Positions 835 to 48,263 of a stretch of DNA of 61,427 bases are shown piece after piece. The position numbers were made by a program, and so were the translations under genes. The notes beneath the pieces were generated by a model. That model was not told the origin of the DNA. It saw nothing but the letters and a program-made list of their open reading frames with translations, and did no database searches. Position 1 is the first letter of the stretch. Each line of letters starts with the position of its first letter. The DNA comes from Oscillospiraceae bacterium (GTDB lineage Bacteria > Bacillota > Clostridia > Oscillospirales > Oscillospiraceae): the NCBI GenBank assembly GCA_017538965.1, contig JAFYHU010000032.1:1-61427 (forward strand), written 5' to 3'.

Positions 835-868
835 TGTGACACTTGTGTGACGGAAGATGTGGTAAGAT
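835..868 (+). promoter_or_regulatory. activator-type promoter: TGTGA boxes at 11/12-bp steps abutting the -10
   Basis: TGTGACA starts at 835, TGTGAC at 846 and TGTGG at 858, so the steps are 11 and 12 bp, about one helical turn each. The last box runs straight into TAAGAT (863-868), a plausible -10. No good -35 lies 17 bp upstream, which fits a promoter needing an activator bound as direct repeats, as OmpR/PhoB-type regulators do. The same layout precedes the other two LysM peptide genes. Confidence 0.6.
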
Positions 869-942
869 GAGCTCGCAAAGGCAAAGAGAGCCTTGAAAGA
901 ATAAAAGGAAACAAATTTTATTAAAAAAAGGAGAAAATAAAA

Positions 943-1194
943 ATGGCTATGACTGAAAAAGAACTCAGCGAAGTGACCGGCGGCGCCGGCAATTGGCAGC
1001 AGTATGCGAAGGGCAGCTATGTAAACTATGGCCAGTACATCGTTTACAATGTTGTGGGCGGTGACGTTCTCTCCGGTATCGCGATCCGCTTCGGCGTGAC
1101 GGTCCAGCAGATCTGCCAGTGGAACAACATCAAGAACCCCGACCTGATCTACGTCAACCAGAAGCTCACCATCTATCCGACCATCCTTCGGTAA
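943..1194 (+). CDS. double-glycine-leader LysM peptide, copy A
   Basis: The 83-residue product begins [16 protein letters not shown], a typical leader of the kind cut after Gly-Gly by C39-peptidase ABC exporters of bacteriocins and related peptides. The rest is a recognisable LysM peptidoglycan-binding fold: [19 protein letters not shown], then [20 protein letters not shown]. The likely mature product is therefore a small exported wall-binding protein of about 68 residues. The AAAGGAG ribosome site at about 929 fits the start at 943. The protein is identical to copy B at 3194-3445. No exporter gene is in the window. What the mature peptide does (bacteriocin-like, wall-anchored signal or structural) cannot be told from the sequence. 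Confidence 0.85.
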
Positions 1195-1208
1195 GAGCAT
1201 TCAAGGGT

Positions 1209-1236
1209 AATCCCCCTGCCTCCGGCAGGGGGATTT
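1209..1236 (+). terminator. hairpin terminator of LysM peptide gene copy A
   Basis: AATCCCCCTGCC pairs with GGCAGGGGGATT around a 3-4 nt loop, 14 nt after the stop codon. The T-run is short (TTT). Confidence 0.7.
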
Positions 1237-1299
1237 CTGCACAGGTAACCAGAAGCTCACCATCTATCCGACCATTCTCCGGTAAGAGCATTCAAGGGT

Positions 1300-1327
1300 A
1301 ATCCCCCTGCCTCCGGCAGGGGGATTT
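1300..1327 (+). terminator. duplicated hairpin terminator
   Basis: Exact repeat of the hairpin at 1209-1236, 91 bp downstream, following the first orphan gene end. Confidence 0.65.
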
Positions 1328-1395
1328 CTGCACAGGTAACCAGAAGCTGACCATCTATCCGACCATTCTCCGCTGATCTGCTTCAACGGAACCTT

Positions 1396-1427
1396 CCCCT
1401 CGCCTCCGGGCGGGGGGATTTCCTTTT
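1396..1427 (+). terminator. GC-rich terminator closing the copy A array
   Basis: CCCCTCGCC pairs imperfectly with GGCGGGGGG and is followed by ATTTCCTTTTT. The same structure ends copy B. Confidence 0.7.
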
Positions 1428-1551
1428 TACTGAAGAACCAGTACAGAGGGAGCAAAAGAACTGTCTCCTTGTCTTACAAGACAACAGTACAGCAGAACGA
1501 AACCGAGACGGCTGAAAACAGTTGAAGCCCGGAAACTCATATAAGCGCTCT
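1428..1551. other. intergenic stretch with one perfect palindrome, no gene seen
   Basis: No coding frame of interest. It contains TTGTCTTACAAGACAA at 1469-1484, a perfect inverted repeat of 7-bp arms with a 2-bp centre, which could be an operator or the base of a small hairpin. Confidence 0.4.
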
Positions 1552-1594
1552 TAAGTGCCAAAAAACGTGGAGTCAAAACGTTTTTAGGCACTTA
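1552..1594. repeat. 17-bp inverted repeat upstream of the ATPase promoter
   Basis: TAAGTGCCAAAAAACGT and ACGTTTTTAGGCACTTA form arms with one mismatch around a 9-nt centre. It ends 15 bp before the -35 of the ATPase promoter. It may be a rho-independent terminator for upstream transcription or a regulator site. Confidence 0.7.
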
Positions 1595-1608
1595 AAAACG
1601 TTCTCCTC

Positions 1609-1637
1609 TTTACAATTTTGCCATTTATTATTATAAT
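1609..1637 (+). promoter_or_regulatory. sigma-A-type promoter of the AAA/DUF4143 ATPase
   Basis: TTTACA (1609-1614), a 17-bp spacer and TATAAT (1632-1637). It lies about 50 bp upstream of the start codon. Confidence 0.75.
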
Positions 1638-1687
1638 AGGTCAAACCAACAGAACCCAACAGAATCCGTGGGAAGGGGAGAACGTAT

Positions 1688-2995
1688 ATGGATCGGGCCA
1701 TTACCAGGCAGCTTGTAAAGTGGATGGGAAATCCGAATCGGAAACCGCTTGTTCTGAAAGGCGTCCGTCAGTGCGGGAAAACCTATGTGCTGAAAGAATT
1801 CGGCAGAATGCATTATCAGGACACGGTATATCTGAACTTTGAAGAAACGCCTTCTCTTTCGGCCATCTTTGAAAAGGATCTGGACGTTCAGAGACTCCTG
1901 TTTGAGCTTGGCCTGTCAGCCGGAAAAACCATATCGCCTCGGACAAGCCTGCTGATTCTGGACGAAATCCAGGAGTGTCCGCGGGCGCTGACCGCACTCA
2001 AATACTTCTGCGAGAATGCACCGGAATATCATATTGCCTGTGCCGGTTCGCTCCTCGGCATTGCCATCCACGAAGACCAGTCTTTCCCCGTGGGAAAAGT
2101 GGATATTCTCACCTTATATCCCATGTCTTTTCTGGAATTCCTTGATGCATTGGAAGAGCGTCCGCTGAGTAAGTATCTGGAGGAACTTCCTCTTGGGGAC
2201 TCTCTGCCGGCACCGGTGCATACAAAACTTCAGACAGCTCTGCGGCAGTATTATGTTACAGGCGGGATGCCGGAAGCCGTATCTGCCTGGTGCCGCACAA
2301 AGGACCTTTCACAGGTGGAAGAGATCCAGCAGAACATTCTGACCAGCTATGAGCTTGATTTTGCAAAACATGCACCAGTCAAAGACTTTCCGAAGCTTTC
2401 CGCTATCTGGGCGGCCGTTCCGCAGCAGCTGGCAAAACCGAACAGCAAGTTTATCTTCAGCCAGGTGAAAAAGGGGTGGCGGGCAAAAGATCTGGAGGAT
2501 GCGCTGCAATGGCTGGAAAGGGCGGGACTGGTTCACCGGGTATGCCGTGTGGAGCAGCCGTTCATGCCGCTCTCTTCCTATGCGGATGCCAGCTTTTTCA
2601 AACTCTATCTCTGTGATATTGGACTTCTCCGCAGGCTTGCCCGGCTCCCTGCGAAAATTCTGCTGGACTCGTCAGAGCTCTATCGCGAATTCAAAGGGGC
2701 GATGGCAGAAAACTATGTGCTGCAGGAGCTGGTGTGCGAAAATCTGGAACCGCTGTACTACTGGACGTCCGGTAACAGCGCAGAAGTAGACTTTCTCGCT
2801 CAGATCGATATGCATATTGTGCCGATTGAGGTAAAATCAGAAACCAACACGAAAGCAAGATCCCTTGCTGAGTATCGGAAAAAGTATCAACCGCCGCATG
2901 CGGTCATCGCGTCCATGGAGGAAGCGTTCACCGGAGACTCCCTGATAAGAATTCCTCTTTACCTGATCTCCGAGATTTCCCGCGTCATAAGCTGA
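1688..2995 (+). CDS. AAA-family ATPase with C-terminal DUF4143 domain
   Basis: The 435-residue protein begins with an AAA_14-type ATPase domain. The Walker A region is GVRQCGKTYVLKEFG (about residues 25-39), with C in place of the more usual V/T, and Walker B is LLILDEIQECP (about 88-98). The second half is a DUF4143 domain with the usual C-terminal signature: FKGAMAENYVLQEL, then YYWTSGNSAEVDFLAQ and VPIEVKSE, the E-VDF-EVK pattern being nuclease-like. Members are common, often laterally moved proteins of gut anaerobes; their role is not established and defence or mobile-element functions have been suggested. The gene has its own promoter and lies between two copies of the LysM peptide locus, so it may be a passenger. 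Length is normal and no frame damage is seen. Confidence 0.85.
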   Translation: MDRAITRQLVKWMGNPNRKPLVLKGVRQCGKTYVLKEFGRMHYQDTVYLNFEETPSLSAIFEKDLDVQRLLFELGLSAGKTISPRTSLLILDEIQECPRALTALKYFCENAPEYHIACAGSLLGIAIHEDQSFPVGKVDILTLYPMSFLEFLDALEERPLSKYLEELPLGDSLPAPVHTKLQTALRQYYVTGGMPEAVSAWCRTKDLSQVEEIQQNILTSYELDFAKHAPVKDFPKLSAIWAAVPQQLAKPNSKFIFSQVKKGWRAKDLEDALQWLERAGLVHRVCRVEQPFMPLSSYADASFFKLYLCDIGLLRRLARLPAKILLDSSELYREFKGAMAENYVLQELVCENLEPLYYWTSGNSAEVDFLAQIDMHIVPIEVKSETNTKARSLAEYRKKYQPPHAVIASMEEAFTGDSLIRIPLYLISEISRVIS

Positions 2996-3087
2996 GACCG
3001 CTGCGACGGTTCTCGACGGCGGACGGCAGACGGTTCATCGAAATGTTCATGGATTATTCATATACAAACGGATAATTTAAGTTTCCG

Positions 3088-3121
3088 TGTGACACTTGTG
3101 TGACGGAAGATGTGGTAAGAT
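3088..3121 (+). promoter_or_regulatory. TGTGA-box promoter of LysM peptide gene copy B
   Basis: TGTGACA at 3088, TGTGAC at 3099, TGTGG at 3111 and TAAGAT at 3116-3121: same order and same 11- and 12-bp steps as in copy A. Confidence 0.6.
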
Positions 3122-3193
3122 GAGCTCGCAAAGGCAAAGAGAGCCTTGAAAGAATAAAAGGTAATAAATTTTATAAAAAAGGAGAAAACAAAA

Positions 3194-3445
3194 ATGGCTA
3201 TGACTGAAAAAGAACTCAGCGAAGTGACCGGCGGCGCCGGCAATTGGCAGCAGTATGCGAAGGGCAGCTATGTAAACTATGGCCAGTACATCGTTTACAA
3301 TGTTGTGGGCGGCGACGTTCTCTCCGGCATCGCGATCCGCTTCGGCGTGACGGTCCAGCAGATCTGCCAGTGGAACAACATCAAGAACCCCGACCTGATC
3401 TACGTCAACCAGAAGCTCACCATCTATCCGACCATTCTTCGGTAA
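3194..3445 (+). CDS. double-glycine-leader LysM peptide, copy B
   Basis: The 83-residue product is identical to copy A (943-1194), with the same double-glycine leader and LysM fold. Synonymous changes in the DNA with no protein change suggest recent duplication or gene conversion with the protein under constraint. The ribosome site AAAGGAG precedes the ATG. It is transcribed alone from its own box-array promoter and closed by its own terminator, so both copies should be expressed. Confidence 0.85.
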
Positions 3446-3459
3446 GAGCATTCAAGGGT

Positions 3460-3487
3460 AATCCCCCTGCCTCCGGCAGGGGGATTT
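3460..3487 (+). terminator. hairpin terminator of LysM peptide gene copy B
   Basis: Same AATCCCCCTGCC/GGCAGGGGGATT hairpin as in copy A. Confidence 0.7.
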
Positions 3488-3497
3488 CTGCACAGGT

Positions 3498-3536
3498 AAC
3501 CAGAAGCTGACGATCTACCCGACCATTCTCCGCTGA
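3498..3536 (+). pseudogene. orphan 3' end of a LysM peptide gene
   Basis: Encodes [12 protein letters not shown] and a TGA stop, 91 bp after the same codons in the intact gene. No start or upstream coding part exists. It is the copy B counterpart of the orphan end at 1338-1376. Confidence 0.75.
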
Positions 3537-3555
3537 TCTGCTTCAACGGAACCTT

Positions 3556-3586
3556 CCCCTCGCCTCCCGGCGGGGGGATTTCTTTG
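3556..3586 (+). terminator. GC-rich terminator closing copy B
   Basis: CCCCTCGCC pairs with GGCGGGGGG, followed by ATTTCTTTGTT. Confidence 0.65.
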
Positions 3587-3623
3587 TTCTGATCTTCCCC
3601 CCGACAGTTCTTTTTCTTTCTTC

Positions 3624-3702: not shown

Positions 3703-3918
3703 ATGAATGCAGATAATTTTCCTTTTGTGGTATATTTGATCCATGCCTGTGCCAACCGTTGGGGAAGTACTCCGAAGAATGTTTACAGGAGTCTGAAAAC
3801 AACAGGCTGCATTGATCAATACCTGATTCCCCATTATGATATTCTTCATACACAGGGCACAGATTATATCGTGGATGATATTCGGGAATACCTGAATGTA
3901 AGAGGAGTAACGGTATAA
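3703..3918 (+). CDS. DUF3791 domain-containing protein
   Basis: The 71-residue product matches the DUF3791 family. It has a hydrophobic FVVYLIHACANRWG start, then VYRSLKTTGCIDQYLIPHYD and a C-terminal DIREYLNVRGV. In gut Clostridia this gene is usually the first of a compact cassette followed by a DUF3990 gene and a third small gene. The biochemical role is unknown; the cassette behaves like a small accessory, possibly toxin-antitoxin-like module. A GGAGGAAG ribosome site lies about 10 nt before the ATG. In this window the DUF3990 partner is deleted. Confidence 0.8.
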   Translation: MNADNFPFVVYLIHACANRWGSTPKNVYRSLKTTGCIDQYLIPHYDILHTQGTDYIVDDIREYLNVRGVTV

Positions 3919-46058: not shown

Positions 46059-46092
46059 TGTGACAGTTTTGTGACAGATCTTGTGATAAATT
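46059..46092 (+). promoter_or_regulatory. TGTGA-box promoter of the third LysM peptide gene
   Basis: TGTGACA at 46059, TGTGAC at 46070, TGTGA at 46082 and TAAATT at 46087-46092. The 11- and 12-bp steps and the junction with the -10 match the promoters at 835 and 3088 exactly, although the surrounding sequence differs. Confidence 0.6.
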
Positions 46093-46131
46093 ATCCATGC
46101 AAGAATCATTATGAAAATGGAGGAATAGAAT

Positions 46132-46368
46132 ATGTCTATGAAAAAACAGGCGCTGAGCGACGAACTGCTCGACAATGTGACCGGCGGTACCGTGATTCCG
46201 AGGCCTTCCGAAAACGGGGAAACGCTGAAAAGCTTTGCCGACAGGATCAACGCGTCGGCCAGCCGGAACGTCACCCCGCAGAACCTGATCCTGTGGAACA
46301 ATCTGCCCGCAACGACCGACCCCAATGCGCCCCTGCCTGCCGGCACGGTCCTGAAGGTCTTCTTCTGA
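46132..46368 (+). CDS. double-glycine-leader LysM-like peptide, third member
   Basis: The 78-residue product starts MSMKKQALSDELLDNVTGG, a double-glycine leader of the same type as [14 protein letters not shown] in the two copies near the left end. The mature part (about 59 residues) is LysM-like: ENGETLKSFADRIN, VTPQNLILWNNLP and PAGTVLKVFF. The sequence is otherwise diverged, so this is an old paralog. GGAGG lies 8 nt before the ATG at 46132; a second ATG at 46138 is possible. It is flanked by two secreted-protein genes and closed by a terminator. Export would need a C39-type ABC transporter encoded elsewhere. Confidence 0.8.
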   Translation: MSMKKQALSDELLDNVTGGTVIPRPSENGETLKSFADRINASASRNVTPQNLILWNNLPATTDPNAPLPAGTVLKVFF

Positions 46369-46508: not shown

Positions 46509-48263
46509 ATGAAGACAAAACGTTATTTTGCGCTTCTGCTGGCGCTGGCTCTGCTGGTTTCGCTGGCGGTTTGCGGCAGCGGTACGGCTTTTGCCGACGA
46601 TGCCCCCGTAAGCGCAGCGCAGCAGCTGAAGCTGATCTCGTCCCAGATGAGCAGTCTGATCCAGACCAACACCGAGCTTCCCTGGTATTACTGTGTCGCG
46701 GATCTGGACCACAACGGATGCCTGGAGATCATCGCGGCTTCCCAGCATCCGGGGGACCGTTCCACCAACCTGAAAATCTGGACGGTCAGCAAGGACGGCA
46801 CCTCTCTGAGCGAATGCAATCTGAACAAAGCCGAGGAAGAATCCTTCCCCGACATCATGACCGATACCGTGGACACCTATCATGACAAGGACAAAGACAC
46901 CTGGTATTACATGGTCTATGACAACGTGGTGATCTCGGATACGGAGGTCTATACCGTCAAGACGGCCGTCAACCTGAAGAACGGCACCATGGGCTATGAT
47001 GCCTACGCGGTTGAGCATACGGTAGTCCAGAACGGACAGAAGAATGTCTCGCATACGGATATGAACGGCATTGCCATTTCGGCCGATCAGTACAACGCTT
47101 CGGGCGTAGACGCCTTTGCCGGTACCGAAAGAAGCAACACGGCCTTTGAGTGGCTGACCCCGGACAAGGCGACTGACCAGAACAGACTGACCGAGAGCTA
47201 CGAGGTTTTCCTCGGTACCAGAGAGCCGACCGAGGTCTTCCCGGTCCCGAAGCCTGTGGCTCTGGGCGGGACGGGAACCGCACCGGCGACACCGACTCCG
47301 GTCCCGACCGTTGTGCCTCAGCCCCAGCCCCAGCCGGTCCAGCCGACGTATCTCAGCATCACGAAGAACCCCACCAACGAGAACAAAAAAGTCGGCGGTA
47401 ATGCTGTCTTTGTTGCCTGCGCCAACGCCTATGAGTCTCTGAACTGGACCTTTGTCTCTCCCAACGGCGGCGAATACTCTCCCGCAAACTTCGTTTCCGG
47501 TTCCGGGGCCTATGTATCCGGTGAATACAGCACGACCATCACGGTCAGCAATCTGGAAGACTGGATGAACGGCTGGGGTGCCTACTGCACCTTCTATTTC
47601 CAGGGCCAGTCCGCCCGCACCAGCACAGCCTACATCTATCTCAGCAGCACTCCGCCCACTCCGCCGACTCCGCCGACGCCTTACTACGGAACCATGAGCG
47701 GCACGGCCTATGAAGGCGGCGCCGGATATGCCATCTATCTGCAGAACGGCACCCAGGTGTTCGTAGACAGCTGGAACTGCAATGTGGAAGGTCAGTTCTA
47801 TGACGGCTGCTCCGCCATCGTCTATTACACCGATTATCCCAGCGACGCGAATATCTACCGGGCCGATATCTACGGCAACCAGGGCCTTCTTCCTGATCCC
47901 GAGCCATATTACGGAAGCATGAGCGGCAATGCCTACAACGGCGGCGGCGGATACGCCATCAACCTGTCAAACGGTGATCAGGTATATGTCGATGCCTGGA
48001 AGTGCAATGTAGAAGGTCAGTTCTATGACGGCGCCTCGGCAATGGTATACTACAGGGACTATCCCAGCAGCGACAACATTTACAGCGTTGATATCTGGGG
48101 CAACCAGGGCCTGATCGTTCCTGATGATTATGATTACGACTATGATGACGATGACCAGGGCGGCTGGGCCGGCTCCTCGACGGTAGTCTGCCCGGGCTGC
48201 GGACGGGATGTCGCCGCGGCTTACGATAACTGCCCGTATTGCGGAACCTATCTCTGGGGCTGA
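46509..48263 (+). CDS. secreted protein with Ig-like domain, two 75-residue repeats and a C-terminal zinc ribbon
   Basis: The 584-residue protein has a signal peptide (about 1-30). An N-terminal domain has an FG-GAP-like turn VADLDHNGCLEIIA, then a TPTPVPTVVPQPQPQP linker. An Ig-like domain (about 285-378) is similar to that in the protein at 35809-37095. A PPTPPTPPT linker leads to two tandem repeats (YYGTMSG... and YYGSMSG...) rich in Tyr, Gly and Asp. The C-terminus, after an acidic DYDYDDDDQGG run, is a zinc ribbon (CPGCGRDV...CPYCGTYLWG), unusual on an exported protein. GAGGAGGAC precedes the ATG. It may be a surface matrix or adhesin protein. Function unknown. Confidence 0.75.
   Translation: MKTKRYFALLLALALLVSLAVCGSGTAFADDAPVSAAQQLKLISSQMSSLIQTNTELPWYYCVADLDHNGCLEIIAASQHPGDRSTNLKIWTVSKDGTSLSECNLNKAEEESFPDIMTDTVDTYHDKDKDTWYYMVYDNVVISDTEVYTVKTAVNLKNGTMGYDAYAVEHTVVQNGQKNVSHTDMNGIAISADQYNASGVDAFAGTERSNTAFEWLTPDKATDQNRLTESYEVFLGTREPTEVFPVPKPVALGGTGTAPATPTPVPTVVPQPQPQPVQPTYLSITKNPTNENKKVGGNAVFVACANAYESLNWTFVSPNGGEYSPANFVSGSGAYVSGEYSTTITVSNLEDWMNGWGAYCTFYFQGQSARTSTAYIYLSSTPPTPPTPPTPYYGTMSGTAYEGGAGYAIYLQNGTQVFVDSWNCNVEGQFYDGCSAIVYYTDYPSDANIYRADIYGNQGLLPDPEPYYGSMSGNAYNGGGGYAINLSNGDQVYVDAWKCNVEGQFYDGASAMVYYRDYPSSDNIYSVDIWGNQGLIVPDDYDYDYDDDDQGGWAGSSTVVCPGCGRDVAAAYDNCPYCGTYLWG
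47682..48131 (+). repeat. two tandem 225-bp coding repeats
   Basis: Units begin at 47682 and 47907 and encode 75-residue repeats: YYG-MSG-AY-GG-GYAI, then V-GQFYDG-SA-VYY-DYPS and IYGNQGLL or IWGNQGLI. About 70% of residues match between the two by eye. Confidence 0.8.

Follow-up and report, generated by a model that had tools for sequence, protein, structure and literature searches.

Can a peptide exporter of the bacteriocin type also supply a cell with small proteins that cling to its wall? The question is raised by a 61,427-nucleotide stretch of DNA from an Oscillospiraceae bacterium (GenBank assembly GCA_017538965.1, 3.39 Mb in 91 contigs), the whole of contig JAFYHU010000032.1 on the forward strand, which we refer to as the window and number C20 among the contigs of this genome. 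It carries two copies of a gene for an 83-residue protein in which a double-glycine (GG) leader is followed by a LysM domain, and a third, diverged member of the same kind. C39 exporters are mostly known for bacteriocins, pheromones and ribosomally synthesized and post-translationally modified peptides (RiPPs). Judging from the sequence comparisons below, the window proteins are most likely exported, leader-trimmed, non-catalytic wall binders, many of them under one regulon.

Three GG-leader LysM genes in the window

Both 83-residue proteins exceed the gathering cut-off of the Pfam LysM family (PF01476; 53.3 bits against 20.9, E 2.7e-14), with the domain at residues 35–77 behind the GG leader, and the original prediction of a leader joined to a complete LysM domain therefore describes them correctly. 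It had also called the two genes identical except for silent changes, and they do encode the same protein while differing at three synonymous DNA positions, all of which fall in the mature part. The diverged third member that it placed farther along the window is present too, with a LysM match that just clears the cut-off (21.0 against 20.9) behind a leader ending ...LLDNVTGG.

A GG-leader pattern ([DEN][DEAKQ]x?[LMIV]xx[VIA]xGG near the start of an open reading frame (ORF) of at least 25 residues) was run over both strands of the window and returned exactly three ORFs, the three LysM genes. The chance background of this pattern is low, as 265 of 20,000 random positions (1.3%) in 160 kb of the same genome precede such an ORF. 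The window LysM proteins have no catalytic domain, and no Sec signal was recognisable in them by eye. An AlphaFold model of the 83-residue protein (mean predicted local distance difference test (pLDDT) score of 81) contains the LysM strand-helix-helix-strand at residues 33–77 and an extra strand at 26–28, and its leader is poorly ordered, with pLDDT below 50 at residues 12–14.

Conservation of the GG motif and of the mature domain

The 83-residue protein has two more copies in the genome, on contigs C76 (93% identity) and C58 (92%); further members are a second D-type gene on C26 and a C-type gene on C34, close to an exporter. The 69 mature residues are the same in both window copies and in the C58 copy and differ by two changes in the C76 copy, and the leaders of the genome copies are more variable, with as many as seven or so non-synonymous changes between them. 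Calculated for eight copies from this genome and its nearest relative (G097), the ratio of non-synonymous to synonymous polymorphism (pN/pS) is lower for the mature part (0.11) than for the leader (0.36), which indicates that selection holds the mature part. The microproteins evidently evolve under purifying selection.

The original prediction had named lack of conservation of the GG motif among homologs as the observation that would tell against it. We aligned 41 peptides, of types A to D, picked from the matches after truncated or redundant ones were excluded, and no columns other than G13, G14 and N61 are invariant, so that on this point the prediction held. The small LysM ORFs near C39 genes in the genus number 59, and 58 of them conform to a leader pattern that ends in GG, GA or GS (ORFs in overlapping stretches may count twice among these 59 and among the 37 CW_7 ORFs described below). 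By our reading, the start of the one that does not fit resembles that of a Sec-exported two-LysM protein. One relative (L194), whose short contig bears the name Eubacterium sp., carries VTVG in place of GG.

This conservation bears on the simplest alternative, namely that these are cytoplasmic or spore-coat LysM proteins whose GG arose by chance. Spore proteins do carry LysM domains as well, and a SafA-type model gives a match of 29.8 bits, against a cut-off of 67.85. The GG is nonetheless the most conserved feature of the family, a like leader stands on unrelated mature types (LysM, CW_7 and SH3-like), and a protein that stayed in the cell would leave the exporter linkage and the shared promoter described below unexplained. 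We regard this alternative as extremely improbable.

Of the 101 genomes sampled from the genus, 58 gave LysM matches, and some of these fall on the LysM portion of a bigger protein. A profile search of 150 genomes across the family found full-length GG-LysM proteins, among the matches listed, in three genomes of the genus and in G183, a member of a second genus. Outside the genus this amounts to one of 147 genomes among the matches listed, and the other matches listed seem to belong to different or longer LysM-containing proteins. Where named records span the leader (L156-L207), they are metagenome-assembled genomes; many carry a ruminant-gut label, and the majority go under the names Oscillospiraceae, Ruminococcaceae or Clostridiales. 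Contigs assigned to Lachnospiraceae, Eubacterium and RUG282 carry nearly identical GG-LysM peptides (L188, L194, L249); because the contigs of L188 and L194 are short, this spread may reflect mis-binning or recent transfer. Viral contigs were considered as another home of the family and gave 17 LysM matches, none covering the whole query (one spanned residues 7–77 at 38% identity), and among them there was no sign of a phage gene family.

Linkage to NHLM-type exporters

The genome encodes an NHLM-type pair of ATP-binding cassette (ABC) subunits on contig C34, where both proteins exceed the curated cut-offs (ABC1, TIGR03796, 933.8 against 853.3; ABC2, TIGR03797, 741.8 against 709.4). A C-type GG-LysM gene lies one gene away from the pair, in a line-up that also includes a HlyD stub, a STAS protein and a DUF218 protein. 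The C39 domain on C34 retains in its sequence the Cys and His/Asp regions, which we take to be catalytic. As a side observation, a radical SAM/SPASM protein with no listed model over cut-off is encoded on C63 (L050:1-3897), beside a second NHLM-like ABC1 that is apparently cut by the contig end.

Across the genus, C39 domains occur in 66 of 101 genomes: in 56 of the 58 with a LysM match compared with 10 of the 43 without, and, by our reading of the matches listed, in 35 of the 37 with a full-length GG-LysM protein compared with 31 of the 64 others. We distinguished 88 C39 places, counting once the three that occurred in two stretches and excluding fragmentary or weak rows (G038:C24, G053:C61, G068:C162, G060:C81, G065:C168, G061:C17). 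Of these, 63 were classed as NHLM-like ABC1+ABC2 pairs by blastp scores to the genome's own pair of at least 850 bits for ABC1 and 700 bits for ABC2, a cut set after the scores had been seen, and 25 as others. The original prediction had proposed looking for linked C39 exporters in related Clostridia, and they are indeed found, since 32 of the 63 NHLM-like places have a GG-LysM gene nearby. A GG-CW_7 gene accompanies 28 places, both genes 20 and either gene 40. Either gene is thus present at 40/63 NHLM-like places but at only 2/25 other C39 places (Fisher p about 1e-6), and those two (L121, L132) fall short of the full-pair cut. Eight places had first been fetched for LysM; they are also in the C39 listing, with stretches that exceed 10 kb from the C39 gene, and when they are left out either gene is found at 32 of 55 NHLM-like places.

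Beyond the genus, G183 has LysM, CW_7 and an NHLM pair within 20 kb. An NHLM ABC1 exceeds its cut-off in 13 of the 150 family genomes (three of the genus, G183 and nine others), and the stretches around it in the nine other-genus genomes hold neither LysM nor CW_7. The LysM and CW_7 cargo is therefore not general to NHLM exporters.

Two further readings are suggested by these loci. The peptides could be class II-type bacteriocins, exported through C39 to kill or inhibit neighbors via the LysM domain. Leader type and exporter are bacteriocin-like, class II models (TIGR03949, PF10439) match weakly, and there is a candidate immunity gene in cl4, a conserved cluster gene (about 170 residues) that has no Pfam or NCBIfam match to E 0.1. 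The short GG leader is indeed in the style of class II bacteriocins. The window proteins nevertheless stay below the cut-offs of those models, and their mature part is a domain of carbohydrate-binding type, predicted by the AlphaFold model to be a folded LysM module rather than a short amphipathic peptide. It is also conserved (pN/pS 0.11) rather than hypervariable, and locus maps show the dispersed copies without a common neighbor able to give immunity. A bacteriocin role is accordingly unlikely in our estimate.

Alternatively, the peptides could act as signals, detected by two-component and cyclic-nucleotide genes that belong to the cluster. Its conserved genes include response-regulator-like, STAS and cyclic nucleotide-binding ones and one that, by eye, looks like a PAS-cyclase. 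Against this, several near-identical copies per genome would give no specific signal, and folded carbohydrate-binding modules are, to our knowledge, unlike known pheromones. We hold signaling to be very improbable.

A shared promoter and regulon

All three window genes have in common a box upstream, a direct repeat TGTGAYA-N4-TGTGAC followed by TGTGnTA; upstream of the LysM copies it reads TGTGACA-N4-TGTGAC, then CTGTGcTAnnATGA. For the original prediction this is a separate, independent line of support, in that the promoter groups the window copies with GG-leader genes spread across the genome. A search of the whole genome with an IUPAC pattern derived from this genome's own sites, allowing up to three mismatches, returned 28 sites compared with none for the reversed control; the pattern is partly circular because a few of its source sites sit at loci found via leader similarity. 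A GG-leader ORF begins within 420 bp behind 21 of the 28 sites, compared with 1.3% of random positions. Among mismatch-free sites, 15 of 16 precede such ORFs, and the sixteenth lies before a predicted lipoprotein of the exporter region, a relative of which has a weak solute-binding match. The resulting regulon includes LysM genes (the window three and those on C76 and C26), the SH3-like gene on C48 and many short Cys-rich peptides. The C58 copy has a weaker site, with a position weight matrix (PWM) score of 25.9, that the pattern missed.

The PWM was built from six promoters of two training genomes and tested on other genomes against 1006 control genes. Upstream regions at or above the 99th percentile of the controls were found for 40 of 72 LysM, 12 of 37 CW_7 and 12 of 15 SH3 genes, counts in which near-identical species and overlapping stretches may enter twice. 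Around exporters in other genomes, 69 sites score at least 14, of which 56 stand before GG-leader ORFs, and several of the sites without a GG gene precede the lipoprotein gene of the clusters. The box resembles those of PhoB/OmpR-type regulators, and a response regulator probably binds the direct repeat, with its 11-bp period.

Other cargo and a likely partner protein

LysM is not the only wall-binding type behind such leaders. In relatives, the exporter clusters encode a second microprotein with a GG leader and two CW_7 repeats (97.5 bits, cut-off 25). The shared promoter also led us to a gene on C48 for a GG leader followed by an SH3-like domain, a type that is matched in 15 of the 101 genus genomes. 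Peptides of the C48 type do not reach the SH3_3 cut-off (PF08239), with two relatives scoring 22.2 and 21.3 against 27 (E 1.7e-4 and 3.1e-4). A search of solved structures in the PDB with the SH3-like alignment found no SH3 chain, only a doubtful match to a chloroplast protein, and so the SH3 assignment rests on those two sub-cut-off Pfam matches. CW_7 and SH3_3 modules are parts of lysins; the like module types found here (CW_7 in relatives, SH3-like in this genome) stand behind a like GG leader and, unlike in lysins, have no lytic domain attached.

Behind the shared promoter are also 16 short GG-leader peptides with three to seven Cys in the mature part, often as CxxC pairs and often after ...LNDELLDKVSGG. 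Five regulon peptides, four of them Cys-rich, were compared with NCBIfam and none had a match over cut-off; zinc ribbons, disulfide peptides and RiPP precursors are candidates for the Cys-rich members. The whole regulon might be a RiPP set in which LysM is just one of the cores. NHLM exporters have been reported in association with the NHLP and Nif11 classes of modified-peptide precursor (PMC2887384), many regulon members are short with three to seven Cys, and the radical SAM protein on C63 adjoins the truncated NHLM-like ABC1. The LysM mature part, on the other hand, has one Cys and a conserved fold, and no modifying enzyme was recognised among the conserved genes scanned or read around LysM-bearing exporters, a set that leaves some genes unscanned and cl4 unmatched. 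For the regulon as a whole the RiPP explanation is quite improbable, while it may apply to Cys-rich members.

Apart from these, another GG-leader family occurs near C39 exporters, about 140–150 residues long, with a mature part of the SGSFxSxTGTxLNL type that looks beta-rich. Its L066 member has no Pfam match.

A larger protein, cl5, often lies beside the GG-LysM genes: 25 of 29 cl5 ORFs are within 500 bp of one, including at dispersed loci (the window and C58). In stretches chosen for C39 alone the linkage is 15/19, the other ten ORFs coming from LysM-chosen stretches or the window. Pfam gave no domain over cut-off for the window member or in five family members. We infer that cl5 and GG-LysM form a functional pair.

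Residues of the glycan-binding cleft

The solved sequences that score best against the window LysM are Extracellular protein 6 (4b8v), which we take to be Ecp6, and LytE (8i2e). Fungal LysM effectors are likewise enzyme-free but use the eukaryotic secretory route. The window protein is like AtlA-type autolysins and Ecp6 in its LysM fold and in most cleft residues, and it differs from the autolysins in being without a catalytic domain and in its putative C39 ABC export.

For the AtlA LysM, PMC4083421 reports that a single module is enough to bind peptidoglycan, that alanine mutants of five residues lose about 12-fold or more, and that T13A loses 60-fold in affinity for a pentamer of N-acetylglucosamine (GlcNAc5). 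Compared with 2mkx, the window protein keeps four of these five residues as given there (L43, D67, L68 and I69 for AtlA L14, D37, L38 and I39), with V42 replacing T13; we matched the AtlA numbering by alignment, at an offset of one to the 2mkx chain. Given how costly T13A is in AtlA, peptides of the A type may bind weakly or favor a different ligand. In the 41 aligned sequences the key-threonine column holds V in 21, T in 8 and S in 7. Wall binding would follow from the presence of a LysM domain.

Neighboring features and coordinates

The coordinates of the features are collected in Table 1. About 160 bp upstream of each 83-residue LysM gene are held in common, and the flanks farther upstream differ. 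Downstream, the C76 copy is also followed by tail repeats like those of the window copies, as is at least one RUG282-like copy (C136), and blastn found none behind the C58 copy. An Rfam scan of the window gave no match at gathering score. Between the two identical LysM copies sits an AAA_14/DUF4143 ATPase gene (1688-2995), and directly downstream of copy 2 is a gene for a DUF3791 protein (3703-3918; 77 bits, cut-off 25). A 131-residue ORF at 311-706 contains a GRAE repeat and has a weak Rpn-type nuclease match (16.3 bits against 52.1), and is perhaps a fragment.

Table 1. Coordinates of the GG-leader LysM genes, their promoters and associated features (window positions unless a locus is given).
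Feature	Position	Strand	Description
GG-leader LysM microprotein, copy 1	943..1194	+	83 residues, ATG start; leader 1-14, mature part 15-83
GG-leader LysM microprotein, copy 2	3194..3445	+	83 residues, ATG start; protein identical to copy 1
D-type GG-leader LysM microprotein, diverged third member	46132..46368	+	78 residues
Promoter of copy 1	835..870	+	TGTGACA-N4-TGTGAC then TGTGGTAAGATGA; zero mismatches; PWM 48.9 (in PWM training set)
Promoter of copy 2	3088..3123	+	same direct-repeat site as copy 1
Promoter of third member	46059..46094	+	zero mismatches; PWM 32.9 (outside PWM training set)
3' gene end and stem-loop of copy 1, repeated downstream	1156..1428	+	repeat family D1; 91-base period, two extra non-coding tails
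3' end and stem-loops of copy 2	3407..3588	+	one extra tail
cl5 protein, likely partner	46509..48263	+	584 residues, secreted/surface-type, zinc-ribbon-like C-terminal end; 140 bp behind D-type gene
Promoter loci of Cys-rich peptides, own genome	L295, L296, L297, L299, L300, L301, L304, L305, L306, L308, L311, L313		
SGSFxSxTGTxLNL-type family	L066:7852-8289, L057:4566-5018, L145:411-1422, L092:3844-4767		

Discussion

The domain, the leader, the conserved GG, the exporter linkage, the shared promoter and the purifying selection are read from the sequence itself, and from them we infer a regulator, export, cleavage, binding and a role on the wall. Each window gene would be transcribed from its own copy of the shared promoter, within a regulon of GG-leader microproteins. 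The leader (...EL-x-x-V-x-GG) would take the precursor to an NHLM-type exporter, composed of an ABC1 with its C39 peptidase and an ABC2, that is encoded elsewhere in the genome, and would be cut after the GG to release a 69-residue LysM microprotein. Free of any enzyme, this would bind GlcNAc-containing glycan of peptidoglycan and stay on the wall of the producer and nearby cells, either coating the wall or serving as an adaptor for the surface-type protein frequently encoded alongside. We consider the proposal likely as a whole, from one regulon through NHLM export and cleavage after GG to enzyme-free wall binding as coat or adaptor. Support for regulated transcription and for NHLM export and trimming is good though indirect. 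The original prediction of a peptide that is exported, trimmed and kept on the wall is thus supported by comparison rather than by experiment.

Several observations weigh against this proposal. The leader of the 83-residue protein scores below the cut-off of every curated GG-leader model that matched it (TIGR03949, 17.0 against 21.5; TIGR01847, 13.7 against 15.7; PF10439, 14.4 against 27.1). The window's own contig yielded no C39 gene; the NHLM pair lies on C34, and the window copies thus stand alone and would rely on an exporter from elsewhere in the genome. The HlyD partner on C34 fails TIGR03794, scoring 33.3 against 156.2 and matching positions 2–84 of 421 only. Two genomes (G059 and G094) have a full-length GG-LysM protein and no C39 domain, and 23 of the 63 NHLM places have neither LysM nor CW_7, some on contigs that end early and some with different GG peptides instead. 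Seven of the 28 promoter sites have no GG ORF behind them. In other genomes, 32 of 72 LysM and 25 of 37 CW_7 upstream regions score below the 99th percentile, so that the box is not displayed by most CW_7 and many LysM genes. Finally, given the valine in 21 of 41 sequences, the ligand may not be ordinary peptidoglycan.

The exporter itself is of a known kind, and the novelty would lie in the cargo, a class of GG-leader wall-binding microproteins. Compared with the NHLM/NHLP systems as set out in PMC2887384 (TIGR03796, TIGR03797, TIGR03794), the present system is alike in that both ABC subunits pass the curated cut-offs and in its GG-motif precursors, clustered with the exporter in relatives. 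It differs in that the window proteins match neither nitrile-hydratase-like nor Nif11 leaders, that the mature parts are conserved, folded wall-binding domains and not hypervariable cores, and that the HlyD part is a stub of 138 residues. The leader models concerned (TIGR03793, TIGR03798) were absent from the NCBIfam matches listed to E 10 for the three window proteins, a search in which HMMER filters drop most weak matches. A literature search, its scope excluding preprints and most subscription papers, found no mention of GG-leader LysM or CW_7 peptides in the titles and abstract openings listed. A paper on polymorphic toxins (PMC3482391) was considered as a prior description and set aside, since its passages on LysM concern adhesion domains of toxins. 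In a survey of Hungate1000 bacteriocins (PMC13289728), LysM and NHLM are absent from the main text.

What might such proteins do for the cell? LysM, CW_7 and SH3-like modules are the wall-binding parts of phage endolysins and of rivals' peptidoglycan hydrolases. Free modules of these three types, sent out by a dedicated peptide exporter, might act as a decoy shield, occupying wall sites on the producer and its kin and blunting lysis by lysins, an idea that we put forward tentatively and think rather unlikely. If C39 exporters do deliver folded, enzyme-free wall binders, some of the bacteriocin-like ORFs called by mining tools would be something else, and a gut genus would appear to have a wall-decorating route that bypasses both Sec and sortase. 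The shared promoter would then offer an easy way to catalog what these uncultured bacteria export by this route. Should the decoy shield prove true, a peptide-export system would have been turned to building an enzyme-free coat for the wall.

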